From contig JAJQEA010000194.1 in assembly GCA_021201905.1 (NCBI GenBank), positions 1 to 43,957 of the forward strand: a stretch of DNA of 43,957 nt, given 5' to 3'. The notes beneath the pieces were generated by a model. It worked only from the letters and a program-made list of their open reading frames with translations, was not told the DNA's origin and did not search any database. Shown here piece after piece: positions 1,278-16,473 of the stretch (positions are counted from its first letter, which is position 1; every line of letters starts with the position of its first letter). Origin of the DNA: Clostridia bacterium (GTDB taxonomy: Bacteria; Bacillota; Clostridia; Lachnospirales; Lachnospiraceae). Both the position numbers and the translations under genes were made by a program.

Positions 1278-4200
1278 TCATACTTCCTTTTTCCTGTGGC
1301 TGAAGGCAATATATAGTCCTGTCACCAGTGAGGAAATCATGGCTATCAGATAATAGCTGCGCGGGCCTTCCCCTGTCTTTGGCAGCGGAGCCAGCGGAAC
1401 ATCCTCGTCTAAAATTGTCATAAGGTCTGAATCGTCCGGCCATTGCGCCACGGGCACCTGATCCGGTTCTATACTTACGGTTGTTCCCGGTCCGCCCGAA
1501 GGATCATATCTGTTTGAACCTCCTCCGGACCCGCCAGTTCCGCCCGAACCGCCGGAGCCTCCCCCCAGGCGTTTCCGTACCACCTCCGGGTGTTTCCGTA
1601 CTGCCTCCGGACGGCGGGCCAGCAGGCTCGTGATTATCATACAAAACATCTGTCTGTTGTCCCGAAGAAACAGATACTGACACCGTATCGCCTTCCTTGC
1701 CGTTTACCCGCACTTCATAGCTGAAATTGTCTCCGTTAATGGGAGTGCCCTCTGAATCCGCTACTTCCGTGACCGTATACTCTCCTACAGGAAGAGGAAT
1801 CACCACGCTGTTTTCAGTACCATCCGGTGTATAATACAGGTGGATAACCTGCGGGATTCCTTCCCAGGATTCACCCTTTTCATTATAGTACCTGCTTCCG
1901 TTCCGGACTGTAAAATAAAACTCTTCCGCACCTTGCTGGGAGACATCCCCTCCGGTCACCTCCTTTGTTATCTTCAGGCTTCCCTGGTTCTTAACATTTT
2001 CAAAGGTGAATGGGATCCCTGTGTTTTCCACAATCAGTACTCCAGCCGGTATGTTTTCAGCCCCCTTATCGCCGGGTATAATGAAATATCTTCCGTCTGC
2101 CTTTTGATACTCCTCCGGCACAGTTGTTTCATCCAGATAATAGAGCTGTCCTTTCACAAGACCCTGTATCAGGGCGCTGTATGACGTTCCCTGCTCTCCC
2201 TTCTCCGGTTTATAAGTGCCAACTGGTTCCAAATCGCCGTCTACCTGGTCCGCTTTATACAGCGTAAATTCGGCGCCATCCAAAGGCTGGCCTGACTGGT
2301 CTACCTTATAGATCCTGATCGAAAAATCACCCGTTCCGGTTGCATACGGCTTTACAATCTTGACATTCTCCTCCACCGTATCCTTGATTGACTCAGAGGA
2401 GCTGTAAAAGAGCTGCGCTGTATTCCTGGTGTTGATTGTGGTATTCACGGCTCCATTGAGCATAACCCTGTATTCAATCCTGATTGGCGTCTCATCCGGC
2501 AAATTGGAAATCTCAAACGTTCTTTCACCGATATGGATTACGGCCTCCTGAATCAAAGCCCCTGTTTTGTCATTGATGACCTTAAAGCTGTCCGGAAGAT
2601 ACATCATCTTGTCATTTCCCAGGGTATCCTTCACAGTCAGGGTAGTACTGCTTATGTCAGCCCCCGGCTTATTCACCAGTATGGTGTATACGACGGACGG
2701 AGCAGTGGAGCCACTGTATTCCATTCCCTTTTCCAGGAAGCCCTTATTGATGCTTGTTTTGGCCGAAACCTGGTAAAGTGCTGTATCATCAATGAACATC
2801 TGCGCTTTATTTTCAAAATCTTTGATGGTAAGGCTTGTTATTTTTGTAGTCACATTCAGGTTGACATGTTTATCCATGTCATACCCGGAAAAGTTTTCCG
2901 CAACTTTATTGAGGTGGATGGTCACTTTCTGGACGTCGCCATCCATTACCACCGTATAATCTCCATTTTGCTCGCTCAGGGTATAGTTCATGTTCTTGAA
3001 CTTTATGCTTTCCAGGACCATCCCCTGGGGAATGGTTTCCACAATATCAACCTTCTCGAATTTACTCAGCTTCTGAGGAGCGCTCCCGTTACCGTAACCC
3101 TTATTAATTTCCAGGGTCCATACCACCTTGCCGTTTTTATTATCGGTCTGGGCCACACTCTTGGACAGGTAATCATCAATATAATATGGCTGCGTAGACC
3201 ACCTGGTCCATGTTGAACCCTGAATGGTCAGTTTTGCCGTATTCTTGAATCGCAGATTGTCTGCCGCCACCCTGCTGAAATCAGCAAACGCACTGGCTTC
3301 CACGCGGGAATCATACTCTATGGTGACAGGTCCTTTCACTGCCTGGTTGAATGTCACGGTAAACCCGCGTTTTCCAAGGGTATTGTCAAGAGCCAGCTCA
3401 TAGACCCCCTCAGCCGGACTTATCTCCTTTCCATTTCCATCCTTAAGTACAAAACTGCTTTTGAGTGTATCCAGGCTGCCAAAAGTATGCTTATTCAGAT
3501 ACTTATTCACTTCCCCAGCATTCCATTGGAGGACTGTCAGTTCATCACTATATACGGCGTCTTTAGGTATCACCGCAGTTTCTGAATCTGTAACCCCGTT
3601 TGAATAAGGCGTAAGGACGGACTGCCAGCGGATGGTGCCAAATTCCTCTCCCCATCCAATGACACCAGGTATGTTCTGGTTCGTCGGCTCCTGACTGTTT
3701 TCTTTCATATCACTGCTGAGGTTCTTTTTAGCCAGTGTATAAGTATTATAGAGAAAGCCTATCTGAGTACCTCCTCCTACACCCGGATAGCCGCTTCCCT
3801 CCGGTGCAATCATCTGGATTTCATTGTTCAGGTTACTGCCCTTGGGCTCATTGACTGTAGTATAATATTTAAAGTCATAGAAATAATTACCCGGTTCAGG
3901 TATCTTCCACTCCCAGGTTTTCGCTTTCTGGGATCCGGATTCTTTATCTGTTTCTATTGTCCAGGCGTTTATTTCTTGGCCGCCGTTGCCACTTTTATCA
4001 TAAGCAGTCACTGATACCTGTCCCAAATACTCCTGTCCATCCTGTCCGGAACTGTTGAGATCCAGTGTATCTTTTACCGTCCATCCGGTAAGGTTAAGCA
4101 AATTAGGGTTCACGTATACATGATATTCTATGAAAACCGGTATTACTTTCCCGCCTTCGTCTATCTGCTCATTATAGTGTGTAATACCGCTTTTGGTGAC

Positions 4201-7200
4201 AATGGAGACCGTATGGCTAAAGGATGAATCCGCGCTCCCGGAAGCCCCTTCGGTGCTTGTGACGGTAACCTTATTGCTGAAGCTGAGATTCAGGGATGCG
4301 CTTACGTTCGTGCCATCTTTATCAGCCTCCTTGGTTTTTCCCCATGCTCCCGGTTCGATGTTCATCCAGTAGTTAAGCACCACTTTCTCACCGGTTTTCA
4401 TGCTGGCAGGATTGCCGCTCGCATCCAGCAGCTTAATAAACATCTTTGTTCCATTTCCACCTTCAGGCGTTTCAAACTCGGCCTTTGCTATGGCGCTCTC
4501 TTGGGATACCGATTCCAACGTGATGCCGGTTTTCGTATCAAACGATATAACATCCTTCTTATTATCGTTGAACTTATCCGAAATCTGTATACCAGTCAGG
4601 TCCATGGTGTTATCTTTTCCAGCCTCGATTGTCACATGGAAGCGCACTGCCTCAGGTATGCCCATTGGTGAATAGCGTACATCCCCGCTCTTTTCCTGGT
4701 CAGAATCAGCCCATTTGTTGTTATTATGGCTTTTCTTCACAGAAACGGAATGTTTCTGCACAACAGGAACCTTGTCAAATACTAGTGTCTTATCAAGCTC
4801 TCCCTGATGGATTACAATTTCTGTCTTATCTTTATTTTCACCGGTAAAATCCACGCTTCCTCTTACTCCGGCTGTTCCTTTAAACTTCTGCCCCACCTGT
4901 GACTGGGTAATACTTATCTTGATGGTGCCGTCTTTTGCAATACTGGCGTTTCCGATGATTCCGCCTGACGCGTCCTTTACCTCAAAGCCCGCCGCATCGT
5001 ACAGTATATTGACAGGAAACTTGTATACAAAGCAGTCACCCGCCTTCACAATATAGTCCTTCAGATTTGGATCCGCGCCATTTTCCATTGCATAGGATAT
5101 TTCAAACCATGTCCTTATATCCCTCGGAAGCGGTTTTCCATCTGCAAGCGTAATCCTGGTCACACCATTTTCGTCCGTTGTCTCCAGGATATCCAACTCC
5201 TGGTTATTCTTATCGCATACGGTAAGAATGGGATATCCGGCATCCATCAGCCCCTCTTTCTCAATATCAAATTCCCTGGCAGCATCCCCGGTTTCTCCAA
5301 AAAATACCGGTGAGAATGTGGTAAAATGGCTGGTAACACAGCTCAGCTCATCGATTGCCTGACCTGCCGGAATCTCCCTATGGCTGTCCTGCATAATCTC
5401 CACTGATTCATCCTGGTCCTTAACCCACAGAACCTGGGCCGCTTCGGACTGCTGGCTCAGCTTCTCCATAAGACTTCCTGAAAAGCTCACCTTTACCTGA
5501 CCGTTTCGGTTCCATTCCTCACTGTCCAGCTTCTCATTCCCCTGCCAAAGATTAATGTCGTATGCAGGCGCCGCTATGATTGCCTGGCCCTGCTCCCCGA
5601 CCTTCTCCTTGATGACATCCTCTACCTGGTTTGTGACGATTTCTACTGTGGCATACATCCCCCACGGAAGGACGCCCGAATCGGCTGATATGGTGATGTC
5701 CATTCCATCGCTCATTTGAAATGTCTTAAAAAACTCCGGCGGCTCCCCCAACTCTGCCATGGTAATTTCTATCTTCTGGTCCTCCTCAATATTCTCAAGG
5801 ACGTACCATGTGATACCATTTTCCACGCTCTCTGACTCCAGCTCACTGCCATTTGCCGCTGCTGACTCCACCATGTATCCTTCTTCTGCTTTGACTCCGA
5901 AGGTTATGCTTTCCCCCTCAGCCACACTGCGTGGGCCCTTCTGCACGGTTCCTTCTGACTCAGGCGAAATCTCATATGTTATCTTATAGCCTTCCACATC
6001 TTCCAGCACCTTCAATTTGCCGAGTGTGGTGATATAGGCTTTCGCCGTACTGCATCCGCCTATTCCCACCAAATCCCCATAACCTATGCTGGGCGTGGTG
6101 TCCTCCTGGTGTTCCGGTTCAGATGGAGTAGCCGTCATCTCCTCTGATGAGGATGGCGTCTCCGCCGGTGTTTCCGGTACAGTGGTTTCAGGCACCGTTG
6201 TCTCAGGCATGGTTGTCTCAGGCATCGAAGCATCCGGCATAGTAGTATCCGGCATCGAAGCATCCGGTGCAGACGTATCCGGCATGTTATCCCCAGAAGT
6301 ACTATCCTGGGGAGAGCTCTCCTGGGAAGAACTCTCCTGGGCAGCGCCATCCTCGCTTTCAGGAACAGAGGATTCCGGCTCGTCTGAAGGCAGGGCATCC
6401 TCCGTACCGGATTCCTGATCCGCCGCGGACTGTCCGTTATAGCCGGATTCCTCCCTTGATAATGTCATATCGTTATCAGCCAGCATCCCCTCTGCCGCCC
6501 CTTCAGTCGATGTGATATCAGCTGTCACTTTGTTATCTGCATTTGCAGAATGGGTATTATCCTTCCCGGCAGCTTCCGCGTCCTCCTGGTTTACAGCCAC
6601 CCTTGGCGCTTCATGCGCGGAACGCGCGGCTACCGGTTCTGAGATCTGCACTTCGCTGTCATTTTCGCGGTCTGAATCCGGAGTATCCTGTTCTGCCTCT
6701 GGTGCATCTGCTTTTTCTGGTGCATCCTCGTTTTCTGGTGTATCGGCTGCCTCTGGTGTATCGGCGTTTTCTGGGGTATCTGCTTCCTCTGATGCATCGG
6801 TGTTTTCTGATGTATCAGCGTTTTCTGTGATATCTGTTTTTTCTGTGGTATCCGCCGCTTCTGTGCCGGACTGTACCGCATCCCCGGTCACATCCTCAAT
6901 TTCATCAGTCCCTGTACCGGAAAGCTGCGCATCCTCAGTCTCTTTTATTTCCGTTTCTTCCGCGGCCCTTGTTTCCTGCTTACTGCCAGATGATACGACA
7001 GGCGCTCCATAATCAATCCTGTTATTGCTAAATGCATGTTCATAATCCTTGACACTGACCCGCTTTGTCCGCTTTTCAGTGCCGTCCGACAGCTCAATCA
7101 CGGTCGAAAATCCCATGGTGCTGTCCCCGTTATTGATATAGAGGATTACAATTTCCTCCTCGCCGGTAAGCGTGTATCCATCGTCCGTACCCTCCGGCAG

Positions 7201-7524
7201 ACGGATAAAAGTACGGATTTCCGCTTCCATACCCAGTCCGTCAAACTCCGGATAAAATTCATACAACGGATCCTGTCCATCCAAAAAAAGCTGGTAATAT
7301 TTTTCCAGTTTTCCATCTGTAAAATTCAAATCCGCCTCTGTCACAGGTTGGGCCCCGCCTCTTATCATCTCTTCTATGGCACCTGCAAAATCAGACCCCT
7401 TTATGATAAAATCCGCATTCTCTCCACTGGCAGCATACGCAATATCCGCGCTGTTCCACACATTTGTGAGGGACAGGGCTGCTGTCAGGCAAAGCGCTAT
7501 AATTCTCTTCCCAATACTTTTCAT
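1278..7524 (-). CDS. Giant Cna_B/SpaA-type LPXTG surface protein, frameshifted near the C-terminus (ORF 1504-7524 plus anchor ORF in 1278-1649)
   Basis: Signal peptide MKSIGKRIIALCLTAALSLTNVWNSADIAYAA; low-complexity Glu/Asp/Thr/Pro repeats; isopeptide-type repeats; SpaA/Cna_B-like DFSIRIYKVDQSGQPLDGAEFTLYKA; C-terminal PLPKTGEGPRSYYLIAMISSLVTGLYIAFSHRKKEV in another frame. RBS TAGGAGG upstream of ATG 7524. Confidence 0.88.
6180..6285 (-). repeat. Degenerate 15-bp coding minisatellite (xMPxTT/VPETT units) in the adhesin
   Basis: gttgtctcaggcatg-like units; protein DASMPDTTMPDASMPETTMPETTVPETTVPETP. Confidence 0.8.
6690..6870 (-). repeat. Degenerate 18-bp coding minisatellite (ADTPEN/ADTSEN units) in the adhesin
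   Basis: tctggtgtatcggctgcc-like units; protein ENADTSENTDASEEADTPENADTPEAADTPENEDAPEKADAPEA. Confidence 0.8.
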
Positions 7525-7632
7525 ATTTATTTACCTCCTACGAATACATATGAAAGTATACATCTCCAAGGTTACTATTACAGTTACATTTTAGATGCCA
7601 TCGAAAATATGTATATTTTATAGCAGAATATG

Positions 7633-8142
7633 TCAATGTATTTCTATCATCTGCATCATCCGTATCAGCTCCATCCCACTCCTGAAGCTGACAATTTCAC
7701 CCTTGGTAAGCCTTCCCCTGATACTCCCCTGCAGGCTGGAATTCTGTCTGTACTTCACATAGACCACAAGCACTTCACGGGCTTTTAGGGCATTTTGAAA
7801 GGGTATCTCATTGATGCTGTATACCAGATTGTTCCGATCCACCTCCGGATGCTGGGAAACGGCTATTCTGTATTTTTTTTCCATTTCCGTGTTCAAAAAG
7901 CGGGGCTCGGTTGTCCGCTGGGGGGCGCCTACCCATTCGCATATATCATCCAGCTTCAGCACCATGTCCCCCACCCCGCAAAACCGCACGGAATCCTTCA
8001 GGTAGCAGTTATACATCTCACCATACAGACCGCCTTCACCAACCCCTTGTACACATACCATCACTGTACTTGCTCTGTCAGATACTACTAATTCTTCTAT
8101 GCGTTTAATGGCCTCTTTATCCTGTGTCATCATATTGCTCAT
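7633..8142 (-). CDS. Hypothetical protein, 169 aa, between the invertible segment and the adhesin gene
   Basis: ORF with RBS-like AAGGGGAAC upstream of ATG 8142; C-terminal VVYVKYRQNSSLQGSIRGRLTKGEIVSFRSGMELIRMMQ; no function recognised. Confidence 0.7.
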   Translation of the reverse strand: MSNMMTQDKEAIKRIEELVVSDRASTVMVCVQGVGEGGLYGEMYNCYLKDSVRFCGVGDMVLKLDDICEWVGAPQRTTEPRFLNTEMEKKYRIAVSQHPEVDRNNLVYSINEIPFQNALKAREVLVVYVKYRQNSSLQGSIRGRLTKGEIVSFRSGMELIRMMQMIEIH

Positions 8143-8182
8143 CTCACTGTTCCCCTTCCATTTAACTCGGTCTTTCCTTCTT

Positions 8183-8210
8183 TACAACAGAATACCTCTT
8201 TTGTTGTAAA
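8183..8210. repeat. Left 28-bp inverted repeat of the putative invertible element
   Basis: tacaacagaatacctcttttgttgtaaa; perfect reverse complement of 8431-8458; itself a dyad (tacaaca N12-14 tgttgta). Confidence 0.95.
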
Positions 8211-8430
8211 GGAACGTCTGTTTTCCCGTTGGATACAGAAAAAGTTTTGCGATTCTCCGTAAATAAACGCTTTTTAACGCGCGGCAAACAAGCTGGCAAA
8301 ATCAGGGGTTGACCAGCTTGTTTGTCATGCCTGTCCTTCTCTTAAAAGGCCTTTAAATACTGGTATCTCCACATTTTTATGGCATTTGCGTTGAATATGT
8401 AGTATAATAAATCCGAAAGTTATGCTGCTG
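8211..8430. promoter_or_regulatory. Putative invertible promoter segment (220 bp between inverted repeats)
   Basis: Flanked by perfect 28-bp inverted repeats next to a tyrosine recombinase gene; contains ATGGCA (8379-8384), 18-bp spacer, TATAAT (8403-8408) reading rightward on the plus strand. Confidence 0.8.
8285..8324. repeat. 12-bp perfect inverted repeat inside the invertible segment
   Basis: caaacaagctgg (8285-8296) / ccagcttgtttg (8313-8324), 16-nt loop. Confidence 0.85.
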
Positions 8431-8458
8431 TTTACAACAAAAGAGGTATTCTGTTGTA
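8431..8458. repeat. Right 28-bp inverted repeat; overlaps the recombinase 3' end
   Basis: tttacaacaaaagaggtattctgttgta; reverse complement of 8183-8210; recombinase stop TAA lies at 8434-8432. Confidence 0.95.
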
Positions 8459-9304
8459 TCGGCCTACCAACAAGTCCATTTTCTCTAATTGTCTGATGTG
8501 GTTTTCCCCGCTTTCCATTGTATATATCCTGGTTGTATTGACACTGCTGTGTCCAAGTATGTCCGCCAGCCTTACCAGGTCCTGTTCCTGGCTGTAATAC
8601 ACCCGCGCAAACAGATGCCGGAGGTTATGGGGAAATACTTTATCCAGATTCACACCTGCTTTTATGGCTGTTTTTTTCATCTCCCGCCATATATTGCTCC
8701 TGTCCATGGGCCTGCCGCTTCGGGTAATGAAGATCATCCCGGATTTTATGCCTTTTTCCCTGGCATATTCCCACAAAAGCCTGCATAACCCGTCTGTCAG
8801 GTAAATGGTCCTCACCTTTCCTTTACAGTCCACCTCTGCCACCTGCCGTTCTACCGCGGATACGGTAATATAGTTGAGTTCAGATATACGGATTCCCGTA
8901 GCACAGACCGTCTGAAGCAGCAGGCACAGCCGTTCATTGCCTTCCTTCCTGGCCGCCGCCACAAGTCTTGTATAATCTTCCCGTGACAGTTCCCTCTGCT
9001 TTGGGCAGAATACCCTCTGCTTTACTTTTATATATCTGGCTGTACACTCATCCCATCCACAGTGCCGGAAGAACCCGTTCAGGGCTGCCAAAGCGCCATT
9101 GGCTGTGACAGGTGACAAGCTTTTTCTCAGTTCTTCTTTCCACAGGATTACCATTTCCTTGGTTACTGCGCTTCCTCTCAGGTACTCCTTAAAAAGGTTC
9201 AGATAGTAATTGTATTTTTTTATGGTTCCTGCGCTCAATTCATTTTGGTACAGAAAACGGCAGTAGTCCTCAATCAGTACACATGAAATAACTTTTTTTT
9301 GCAT
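8432..9304 (-). CDS. Tyrosine recombinase/integrase (XerC/D-like, site-specific invertase candidate)
   Basis: Starts MQKKVISCVLIEDYCRFLYQNELSAGTIKKYNYYLNLFKEYL (core-binding domain); ATGIRISELNYI...HNLRHLFARVYY...LADILGHSSVNTTRIYTM catalytic R...HxxR...H...Y motifs. Longer ORF extends to 9424. Confidence 0.9.
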   Translation of the reverse strand: MQKKVISCVLIEDYCRFLYQNELSAGTIKKYNYYLNLFKEYLRGSAVTKEMVILWKEELRKSLSPVTANGALAALNGFFRHCGWDECTARYIKVKQRVFCPKQRELSREDYTRLVAAARKEGNERLCLLLQTVCATGIRISELNYITVSAVERQVAEVDCKGKVRTIYLTDGLCRLLWEYAREKGIKSGMIFITRSGRPMDRSNIWREMKKTAIKAGVNLDKVFPHNLRHLFARVYYSQEQDLVRLADILGHSSVNTTRIYTMESGENHIRQLEKMDLLVGRYNRIPLLL

Positions 9305-11979: not shown

Positions 11980-12235
11980 AAATTTATATTTACGGCCACA
12001 GTCCGGTTTGTCCGGTTTCCTTGCCGGTTCGTGCAGTTCCACCATACTGATGAAACTGTAATAGATTTCAATGCGCTGTGTCAATACTCGTAACAAATAA
12101 GAGGTCGCCCGGTTTTAATTTTTTAATCAGCCTTTGATAAGCTGGGCGGTTGAAGTCCTTCCCTCTCACCTTATCCAGAAAGATATGGTCTTTTTGGATA
12201 CCGGCTGTCCGCCACGAATATATTAACCGTCTATG
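11980..12235 (-). pseudogene. Remnant of a serine recombinase: N-terminal catalytic fragment joined out of frame to a DUF4368-like tail
   Basis: Frame 1 IQKDHIFLDKVRGKDFNRPAYQRLIKKLKPGDLLFVTSID then stop; shifted frame LTQRIEIYYSFISMVELHEPARKPDKPDCGRKYKFDI to stop. Confidence 0.55.
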
Positions 12236-12532
12236 TAACCAGCGGTGATAGGGAACATATCCTGAAACAGCAGCGCAGTTCTCCTGTCCTGAATGACAAA
12301 TCCTGATGGAGTCAGTCGGCTTGCTCCGTTCTTTTTTCTGCGCCAAAATCCTCTCGAATTTTTCTATTTTTGAACTGCACAGAACAAGCCAGTAGAGGGA
12401 AGTTTCCGCGTCCTGAAAGGCAAAATAGTGGGGCTGTTTCGTAGTGTCATAATTGATTTTAAGATAAGGGTCGCTCACCTTTTGAAAGAAGCTGTCACTA
12501 ACAAAATAGATGTTCCCCGCAACGATTTCCAT
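12236..12532 (-). pseudogene. Type III toxin (CptN/ToxN-like) N-terminal fragment, fused in frame to the resolvase remnant
   Basis: MEIVAGNIYFVSDSFFQKVSDPYLKINYDTTKQPHYFAFQDAETSLYWLVLCSSKIEKFERILAQKKERSKPTDSI resembles the CptN endoribonuclease N-terminus; then breaks off into resolvase sequence. Confidence 0.5.
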
Positions 12533-14055: not shown

Positions 14056-16473
14056 CTATTCATCTATTGATTGTAATTTCTCCAGATATTCTTTGACTTT
14101 CTTTGAATTATCTAGAGCTGCATAATAAACGGCCATTTTTTGATACGATTGCTTTAAGTACGGATGTTTTGAGTTTATCTTTTCTAAAATAGTGATATCC
14201 AACACCTGAAATTCAATGGCCTTTTCATAACTGGATTTACGAAAAAAGACGGTGGCGATATTATTATAAGTCTGCGATAAGTCCATATGGTTCTCATTTT
14301 CAAATTTATTACGAATATTCAGTGCTCTCAAATGGTACTCAAGGGCCGCGTCCAATTCTCCGTTGTCACATAGAATCATAGCCATATTATTATAAAGGGT
14401 GGCGAAATCCTGATGGTTATCAGGTATTCTGCCTTTATACATAGTTTCCGCCTGAAGATAGCAGTCGAAGGCCTTTTCGTGTTCTCCATTATAGTAGTGT
14501 GTCAGTCCTAAATTGTTATAGACAGAAGCCATATCCAGGAAGGATGAGTGCTGCTTATATATTTCAAGGGCCTTTTCTCCATATTGAATGGCCGAAGAAA
14601 ATTCTTCGAGATCATCATAGTTGGTGGCAATGTCACGATAGATATCTGCCATTAATGTTGTTTGGACATATTCAGAGGCTTCACACCCTTGCATAGCTTT
14701 TTTATAGAGCTGCTCGGATCTTTTGAAGTGACCAAAGCAATTTTCTATTGTTGCCTGAATACAGAAAATAGAAAATATATTTTTATTATTATTTGAATAA
14801 GTTTTTGCTAATATTTTATAAGCTTTATCCAACAAAACCATTGCTTCAGATAATTTACCGGTATAGTAATACGCTTGTCCCACAGAGATGCAAAGTAATC
14901 CTATTTTAGCGCTGGTGCTTTTTGAAAAATAATTCAGCGTAAATTCCGCAAAAGGTAACAAATTATTGTAATCCATAATGCTTGTACTTTCATTGCTTGC
15001 CAAATGCCTGATAAAATAATCAATGATATTTTTACAGTCATTTAATGTGATCCTGCAACTGCTTTTGATTACTTCTTTTATCACATGGTGCATAAAGAAA
15101 CCATTATCGGTTTTCTTTAGCCAGGCATACTTTGTTAAACGGATAAACAGATTCATATTAGACAGATTAAACCATCTATAGATATCTGCAGGGACGGGCA
15201 TATTGGGAAAAATTGATAAGACCTTTAATACCTTAAGCTCATCTTTGTCCAGGCTAGAAATATCAAAAACATATTTCAGATGATCGATAACAGTCGCTTC
15301 TCTAACCACCTCATCTCTGTGGGTAATTTGTGCCACGGCTTCTGACAAATTGAACCCGTCATTTTCCAACTTATTAAATATATCCATAGGAGATAATCCA
15401 TCCTGCAAGGAAACCTTGGCGATTGCCTCAATCGTAAGTGTATGAAATCCAGACAACTCTACAATCTTTTTTACATTTTCTCTTTCTTCGTCTGATTCTA
15501 GTTTCCGATAATAATTTTCGAACAGTTCTATACATTTAGATTCATTTAAAAAATCAAGATCATATACGCTGAATGATCCTAGCCGCCGAATTCTGGATGT
15601 GCAAATTACTTTACATCGGAAGCTGTCAAGAATGTGGAGATTCTGGTCATCCGCCTCCGTCACATTGACGTTATCCACAAATAAAAAGGCAGTTTCTTTG
15701 ATTTCTTCCCACAAAAATAATAGCAACCGGTCTAAACGTTCACTATATGGACAGTCGCTGCTGAAAATAGGAAAATAAAACTGCTCCACTAAATCATTGA
15801 GTAAATTTCCTTTGTAATTGACCCATGCCAGTTGGCTGATGATCTCCCTGTCATAGAACAACTCCCGGCACAGAGCGGTCTTTCCTATGCCGCCCATGCC
15901 GTTAACAATAACAATTTTGCTTTTTTCATTGAGCATTACAAGAATATTCTTTAAATCGTTTTCCCTCCCGACAAGTTGTTCCTGTATCTTAGGAGCATAG
16001 CGGGTTAAAATGCGGGGAGACTGTATTTTTTTTGTATTCCCGTCCTCTTGAATTAGAATGCGTTTAAGCATTTGATGGTTTTCCGACAGTTCAACATCAG
16101 CTCTCATGGAAATGATCTTTTTTGAATACTCTGCAGTTTGTAAAAGATAAAAAAATAATCGGGAAAAGAAATATGAATTTTCTTTTTCAGCCGATTCTAT
16201 ATCTGCATCCATAAGAATTTGATGCAGACTTATTTCCAATTCCCGTGCGCCCTCAGATGTGTTTAACGCATGTTTAAACGCATCTTGCAGCCGGGGCTTT
16301 TTTGAATTTACCAATTTAGCGGAGAATTCTTTGCTTATGTCTCTATTCTCTTTGCAGTCCTCTATAGCTTTTTTAAAAGCTCTGGAATATGAAAATCTTG
16401 CAGTTAAATGCCCCTTTGCTTTGACAAACAGCTCAAAAGAATCCTTTAGTATTCCATAAATATCAAATAACAT
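14056..16473 (-). CDS. STAND NTPase: NB-ARC-like domain plus C-terminal TPR repeats, unknown N-terminal domain
   Basis: Walker A VNGMGGIGKTALCRELF; Walker B-like AFLFVDNVNV; sensor-like VICTSRIRR; winged-helix-like region; TPR arrays (AIQYGEKALEIYKQHS...ASVYNNLGLTHYYNGEHEKAFDCYLQAE...ATLYNNMAMILCDNGELDAALEYHLRAL). Confidence 0.85.
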   Translation of the reverse strand: MLFDIYGILKDSFELFVKAKGHLTARFSYSRAFKKAIEDCKENRDISKEFSAKLVNSKKPRLQDAFKHALNTSEGARELEISLHQILMDADIESAEKENSYFFSRLFFYLLQTAEYSKKIISMRADVELSENHQMLKRILIQEDGNTKKIQSPRILTRYAPKIQEQLVGRENDLKNILVMLNEKSKIVIVNGMGGIGKTALCRELFYDREIISQLAWVNYKGNLLNDLVEQFYFPIFSSDCPYSERLDRLLLFLWEEIKETAFLFVDNVNVTEADDQNLHILDSFRCKVICTSRIRRLGSFSVYDLDFLNESKCIELFENYYRKLESDEERENVKKIVELSGFHTLTIEAIAKVSLQDGLSPMDIFNKLENDGFNLSEAVAQITHRDEVVREATVIDHLKYVFDISSLDKDELKVLKVLSIFPNMPVPADIYRWFNLSNMNLFIRLTKYAWLKKTDNGFFMHHVIKEVIKSSCRITLNDCKNIIDYFIRHLASNESTSIMDYNNLLPFAEFTLNYFSKSTSAKIGLLCISVGQAYYYTGKLSEAMVLLDKAYKILAKTYSNNNKNIFSIFCIQATIENCFGHFKRSEQLYKKAMQGCEASEYVQTTLMADIYRDIATNYDDLEEFSSAIQYGEKALEIYKQHSSFLDMASVYNNLGLTHYYNGEHEKAFDCYLQAETMYKGRIPDNHQDFATLYNNMAMILCDNGELDAALEYHLRALNIRNKFENENHMDLSQTYNNIATVFFRKSSYEKAIEFQVLDITILEKINSKHPYLKQSYQKMAVYYAALDNSKKVKEYLEKLQSIDE

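Follow-up and report, generated by a model that had tools for sequence, protein, structure and literature searches.

A putative invertible-promoter phase-variation switch between a tyrosine recombinase gene and a surface-protein operon in a Clostridia bacterium

The window (the whole 43,957-nt stretch of Clostridia DNA that was analysed) encodes a tyrosine recombinase, a protein of 169 aa and a large surface adhesin, all on the minus strand, and a short segment bounded by inverted repeats lies between the recombinase and the 169-aa gene (Table 1). The recombinase gene is intact and its product returned a Phage_integrase hit (PF00589, E=2.1e-26), while alignment revealed conservation of the catalytic residues R139, K161, H226, R229, H252 and Y261, i.e. 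the R-K-H-R-H-Y active site looked for in a tyrosine recombinase near an inverton; the related solved structures are of the XerA/XerD type. A serine invertase (Hin/Gin-type) was rejected, since the enzyme next to the segment belongs to the tyrosine recombinases. Neither the promoter region described below nor close relatives of the recombinase were found in viral contigs, and that collection thus gives no hint of a phage origin.

Table 1. Coordinates of the features at the putative switch and its flanks
Feature	Position	Strand	Evidence
Large SpaA-domain surface adhesin, 2006-aa ORF	1504..7524	-	PF17802, E=1.4e-9
Gap before the adhesin, 108 nt, possible separate adhesin promoter	7525..7632	-	Conserved repeats, box
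169-aa protein of an unannotated family; first gene the promoter would reach when ON	7633..8142	-	ORF, family alignment
Left inverted repeat, 28 nt, holds the putative recombination site	8183..8210	+	Repeat search, chance expectation, homologues
Putative invertible segment between the repeats, 220 nt	8211..8430	.	Repeat search; homologous segment inverted in L049 versus L052
Central hairpin, arms CAAACAAGCTGG / CCAGCTTGTTTG	8280..8332	.	Repeat search, homologue alignment, covariation
Promoter, -35 ATGGCA 8379-8384, spacer 18, -10 TATAAT 8403-8408	8379..8408	+	Promoter scan, conservation
Right inverted repeat, 28 nt, perfect complement of the left arm	8431..8458	-	Repeat search
Tyrosine recombinase, 290 aa from ATG 9304, presumed invertase	8432..9304	-	Phage_integrase, alignment, solved relatives

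The 169-aa gene has an SD-like AAGGGGA ahead of its ATG at 8142. Its product matched nothing in Pfam or NCBIfam and has no recognisable DNA-binding domain; a comparison with PDB sequences returned nothing beyond a weak match to a designed helical repeat protein, and the structural model (pLDDT 62) is of low confidence and found no fold match in the PDB, although it suggests two beta-beta-beta-alpha halves. Members of the family (L023-L048) share the conserved sequence YRQxSSxQG...FRSALELMRM, occur as several paralogues per genome and often stand first, ahead of surface or polysaccharide genes. The gap that follows holds GTAAC direct repeats (within 7570-7588) and a TGTATAYT box, both conserved in the window and in L025/L049, which possibly constitute the adhesin's own, perhaps regulated, promoter. 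The adhesin ORF itself ends early (1290-1570, minus strand), with its LPKTG anchor and tail in another frame after six G residues; this break represents either an assembly or sequencing error or slipped-strand variation.

Elsewhere in the window, no match to Rfam families was obtained. A stretch on the minus strand (12068-12532) scored 80 bits against the CptIN type III toxin family, short of the cut-off of 90, and its vicinity showed no long tandem-repeat antitoxin array. Also on the minus strand, 14056-16473 encodes a STAND-type signalling protein of 805 aa that carries NB-ARC and TPR domains.

The two repeat arms are 100 % complementary over all 28 nt, and the right arm contains the recombinase stop codon. 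Their 24-nt core is present in the window at these two arms only, with 0.00 occurrences expected by chance, and the inner core of the left repeat, ACAACAGAATACCTCTTTTGTTGT, is an imperfect palindrome with an asymmetric centre. The recombination site of the left repeat also occurs in eight homologous switches, which together with the window give nine in the genus, every one beside this recombinase; it is on these 28-bp repeats that the enzyme would be expected to act. A search of 397 family genomes with the exact repeat-to-repeat pattern matched one further genome; the pattern was too strict, failing even on the copy in the window, and nothing can be concluded from its negative outcome.

Within the segment, a sequence-only reading had placed a rightward sigma-A-like promoter, and our scan recovered both hexamers at exactly the same positions, with 10/12 consensus matches and a poor -35; this is the sole promoter-like match in the segment. 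The description of it as a good promoter did not hold up, however: a scan over 2 kb returned 4 matches against 3.7 expected by chance, and the positional promoter score was equalled by 8 % of shuffles (p about 0.08). Taken as a lone sequence, the match is within chance and not significant. What makes the promoter convincing is its conservation among homologous switches. When 15 of these were aligned in promoter orientation (nine in the genus, namely the window and L049-L056, plus six further relatives), ATGTAGTA, which overlaps the -10, was invariant, TATAAT or a near variant overlapped it, and a AAATATGTAGTATAAT-type sequence occupied the same place throughout. Sequence and conservation together point to an outward promoter inside the segment, so that what had been a guess from one sequence becomes a comparative result, and the orientation of a switch can be read from its sequence.

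Behind the promoter sits the central hairpin, which the sequence-only reading lacked (arms around 8285-8296 and 8313-8324). The hairpin is also present in homologues, with compensatory changes at 11 of 15 consensus pairs across 12 switches. In several relatives, T-rich sequence follows the GC-rich stem on both strands, suggesting that the hairpin is probably a bidirectional terminator or insulator; in the window, the T run is weak, with few T residues after the hairpin; termination there may be partial, and this step is an inferred one. Such an element would keep recombinase readthrough off the target operon in either orientation, and would explain why recombinase transcripts should not activate that operon.

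In the window, the promoter faces the recombinase and points away from the 169-aa gene. No copy in the alternate orientation was seen within this assembly; in another species of the genus (L052, genome G005), the same promoter is turned toward the homologue of that gene. We compared L052 with L049, whose promoter faces the recombinase. Their recombinase-side flanks are 88 % identical and their operon-side flanks 80 % identical, both collinear, whereas the interiors align with a score of 97 (79.5 % identity) when one is inverted against 27 as found (best of 200 shuffles, 18.5). By this sequence comparison, the difference is a natural inversion between the repeats. Since the interiors align only after inversion and the window's promoter faces the recombinase, the comparison supports an OFF state of the sequenced copy for the 169-aa gene, as had been proposed from the letters alone, and both states as natural ones. 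A leftward start site had been named in advance as evidence against that proposal, and a sequence scan of 8143-8430 found no leftward promoter-like site. Inversion in silico places the end of the -10 at 90 nt from ATG 8142, in keeping with the earlier estimate of about 100 bp.

Together, these observations indicate that 8183-8458 is very probably an invertible-promoter phase-variation switch. The recombinase would recombine the two 28-bp inverted repeats and flip the 220-nt interior, which comprises one outward sigma-A-type promoter near one end and, behind it, the terminator-like hairpin. In the ON orientation, transcription from the promoter would cross the repeat in the leftward direction and enter the 169-aa gene, perhaps continuing into the adhesin. 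In the sequenced OFF orientation, the promoter would be aimed at the recombinase 3′ end, leaving the operon without a promoter, and leftward recombinase transcripts would be halted at the hairpin. The repeats, the conserved recombinase and promoter, the covarying hairpin and the occurrence of both orientations among relatives are features of the sequences themselves; the transcripts, termination at the hairpin, recombinase activity on the repeats and any effect on surface phenotype are predicted from them.

A recombinase profile search of Clostridia genomes yielded 80 related loci. In 71 of these, an exact inverted repeat 14 nt or more in length lies downstream of the recombinase, nearly always at its 3′ end or just after, and upstream repeats were found in only 3 of the 80. 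The sigma-A promoter of the related switches typically lies 45-65 nt from one end and points outward; it exceeded the 95 % shuffle level in 56 of 79. With near-duplicates removed, 58 switches were OFF (promoter toward the recombinase), 9 were ON (away from it) and 10 were unclear, and a stricter promoter cut gave 43 OFF and 7 ON. OFF copies thus account for 58 of the 67 clear nonredundant switches (about 87 %; binomial p = 7e-10), although the test treats related loci as independent and the p-value is only a guide. The tendency is the same in the few isolates as in MAGs. The first downstream ORF is codirectional in 61/67 loci, at a median distance of 38 nt, and the downstream genes include those for GGDEF/EAL, leucine-rich and InlB-like repeat, SLH, SpaA and capsule proteins. 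One switch (L078) has strong promoters leading out of both ends, and its target may be transcribed in either orientation.

The window's own genome carries five switch loci, each beside a relative of the recombinase. Judged by best promoter score, the window and the loci on contigs C369 and, weakly, C313 are OFF, that on C18 is ON and that on C339 is unclear. The recombinases beside the C369 and C339 switches (L147 and L149) are interrupted by stop codons; these switches may no longer invert, or a different recombinase may act on them.

The main switch may have a further property, which we put forward as a tentative extension of doubtful standing: the OFF-facing promoter could repress the recombinase through antisense RNA or head-on transcription, in which case OFF would be self-stabilising and ON would tend to decay to OFF. 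The promoter and the recombinase are convergent, with the recombinase stop inside the repeat; this placement of the switch recurs in nearly all of the 80 relatives, upstream repeats being confined to 3; and the excess of OFF copies (58/67, p = 7e-10) is in the direction expected. A precedent exists in the fim system, where the orientation of fimS is known to control fimE by way of a terminator (PMC9993118). The shared arrangement may, however, be simple inheritance, and the bias, besides being tested with related loci taken as independent, may equally reflect a preference of the recombinase, as with FimE, or selection against costly surface proteins. A broader version, in which Clostridia at large carry self-contained switches (recombinase, 3′-end repeat, central hairpin and outward promoter) in which convergent or antisense transcription from the OFF promoter shuts down the recombinase, is a shade more speculative. 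If true, silencing by the OFF promoter would make OFF stable and would explain why about 87 % of the oriented copies are OFF; the convergent recombinase-promoter layout is a simple, testable model for a stable OFF state.

The remaining readings concern what the switch controls and whether it works at all. After inversion, the promoter had been proposed to read into both the 169-aa gene and the adhesin; the first part stands, and control of the adhesin is less sure because of the conserved GTAAC repeats and TGTATAYT box in the gap before it. The same elements, and the quite different genes that follow the 169-aa family in other species, would fit a switch that governs the 169-aa protein only, with the adhesin driven from the gap and the 169-aa protein perhaps a regulator. 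We find this conceivable but on the unlikely side, given that the two genes share one direction, that the 108 nt separating them yielded no terminator-like site, and that the protein is without a recognisable DNA-binding domain and no PDB entry matched its low-confidence model. It is very unlikely that the repeats are a relic on which the recombinase is inactive, with the segment locked as it stands: the single orientation in this assembly and the internal stop codons in two other recombinase copies of the genome would agree with that, but here the recombinase is intact with its active site, the repeats are still identical at 28/28 positions and the homologous copy is flipped in another species (L052). 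Least probable by our estimate, and hardly to be expected, is a chance promoter match in a switch that works through a terminator or an outside promoter, as in Clostridioides difficile cwpV. Such a match would account for the weak single-sequence significance; it is at odds with the strong conservation in homologues and the consistent placement of outward promoters across the wider class, and it was on these two points that a cwpV-like external promoter was rejected.

If the invertible-promoter reading is right, surface, c-di-GMP and capsule genes of gut Clostridia would be represented mainly in their OFF state in reference genomes and MAGs. With sequenced copies mostly OFF, expression studies of single isolates could miss the genes under switch control.

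In the fim system of Escherichia coli, the tyrosine recombinase gene fimE lies immediately beside the switch and reads toward it, with the surface operon on the other side, and the inverted repeats are about 9 bp long. The window resembles this fimE-fimS-fimA arrangement in having a putative invertible promoter between a tyrosine recombinase and a target surface operon. It differs in the length of its repeats (28 bp), in its Xer-like recombinase and in its covarying hairpin, the fim terminator being Rho-dependent. Nor was a FimB/FimE-type recombinase pair found, as there is one recombinase (8432-9304) and the scanned neighbours are not related to it. The fim switch itself is an invertible element of about 300 bp with promoter and terminator function (PMC9993118).

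Closer to the present host, the pdcB/Cdi2, flagellar and cwpV switches of C. difficile are likewise short segments inverted by tyrosine recombinases in Clostridia, and the C. difficile reference genome, too, has the pdcB switch in the OFF state (PMC9286219). RecV of C. difficile serves several switches; here, every switch adjoins its own recombinase gene. A literature search of incomplete coverage returned no description of exactly such a switch class, and the OFF bias, the central hairpin and the overlap of repeat and recombinase stop were not found in the available part of an inverton survey (PMC11892184). That part does describe gut invertons of the PhaseFinder type, which, like the putative switch in the window, are invertible promoters near surface genes and beside tyrosine recombinase genes, and it includes invertible promoters beside tyrosine recombinases in Firmicutes_A (inverton groups 139 and 145). 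The kind of system is therefore already known, namely invertible-promoter phase variation beside a tyrosine recombinase, to which the window adds one more case.
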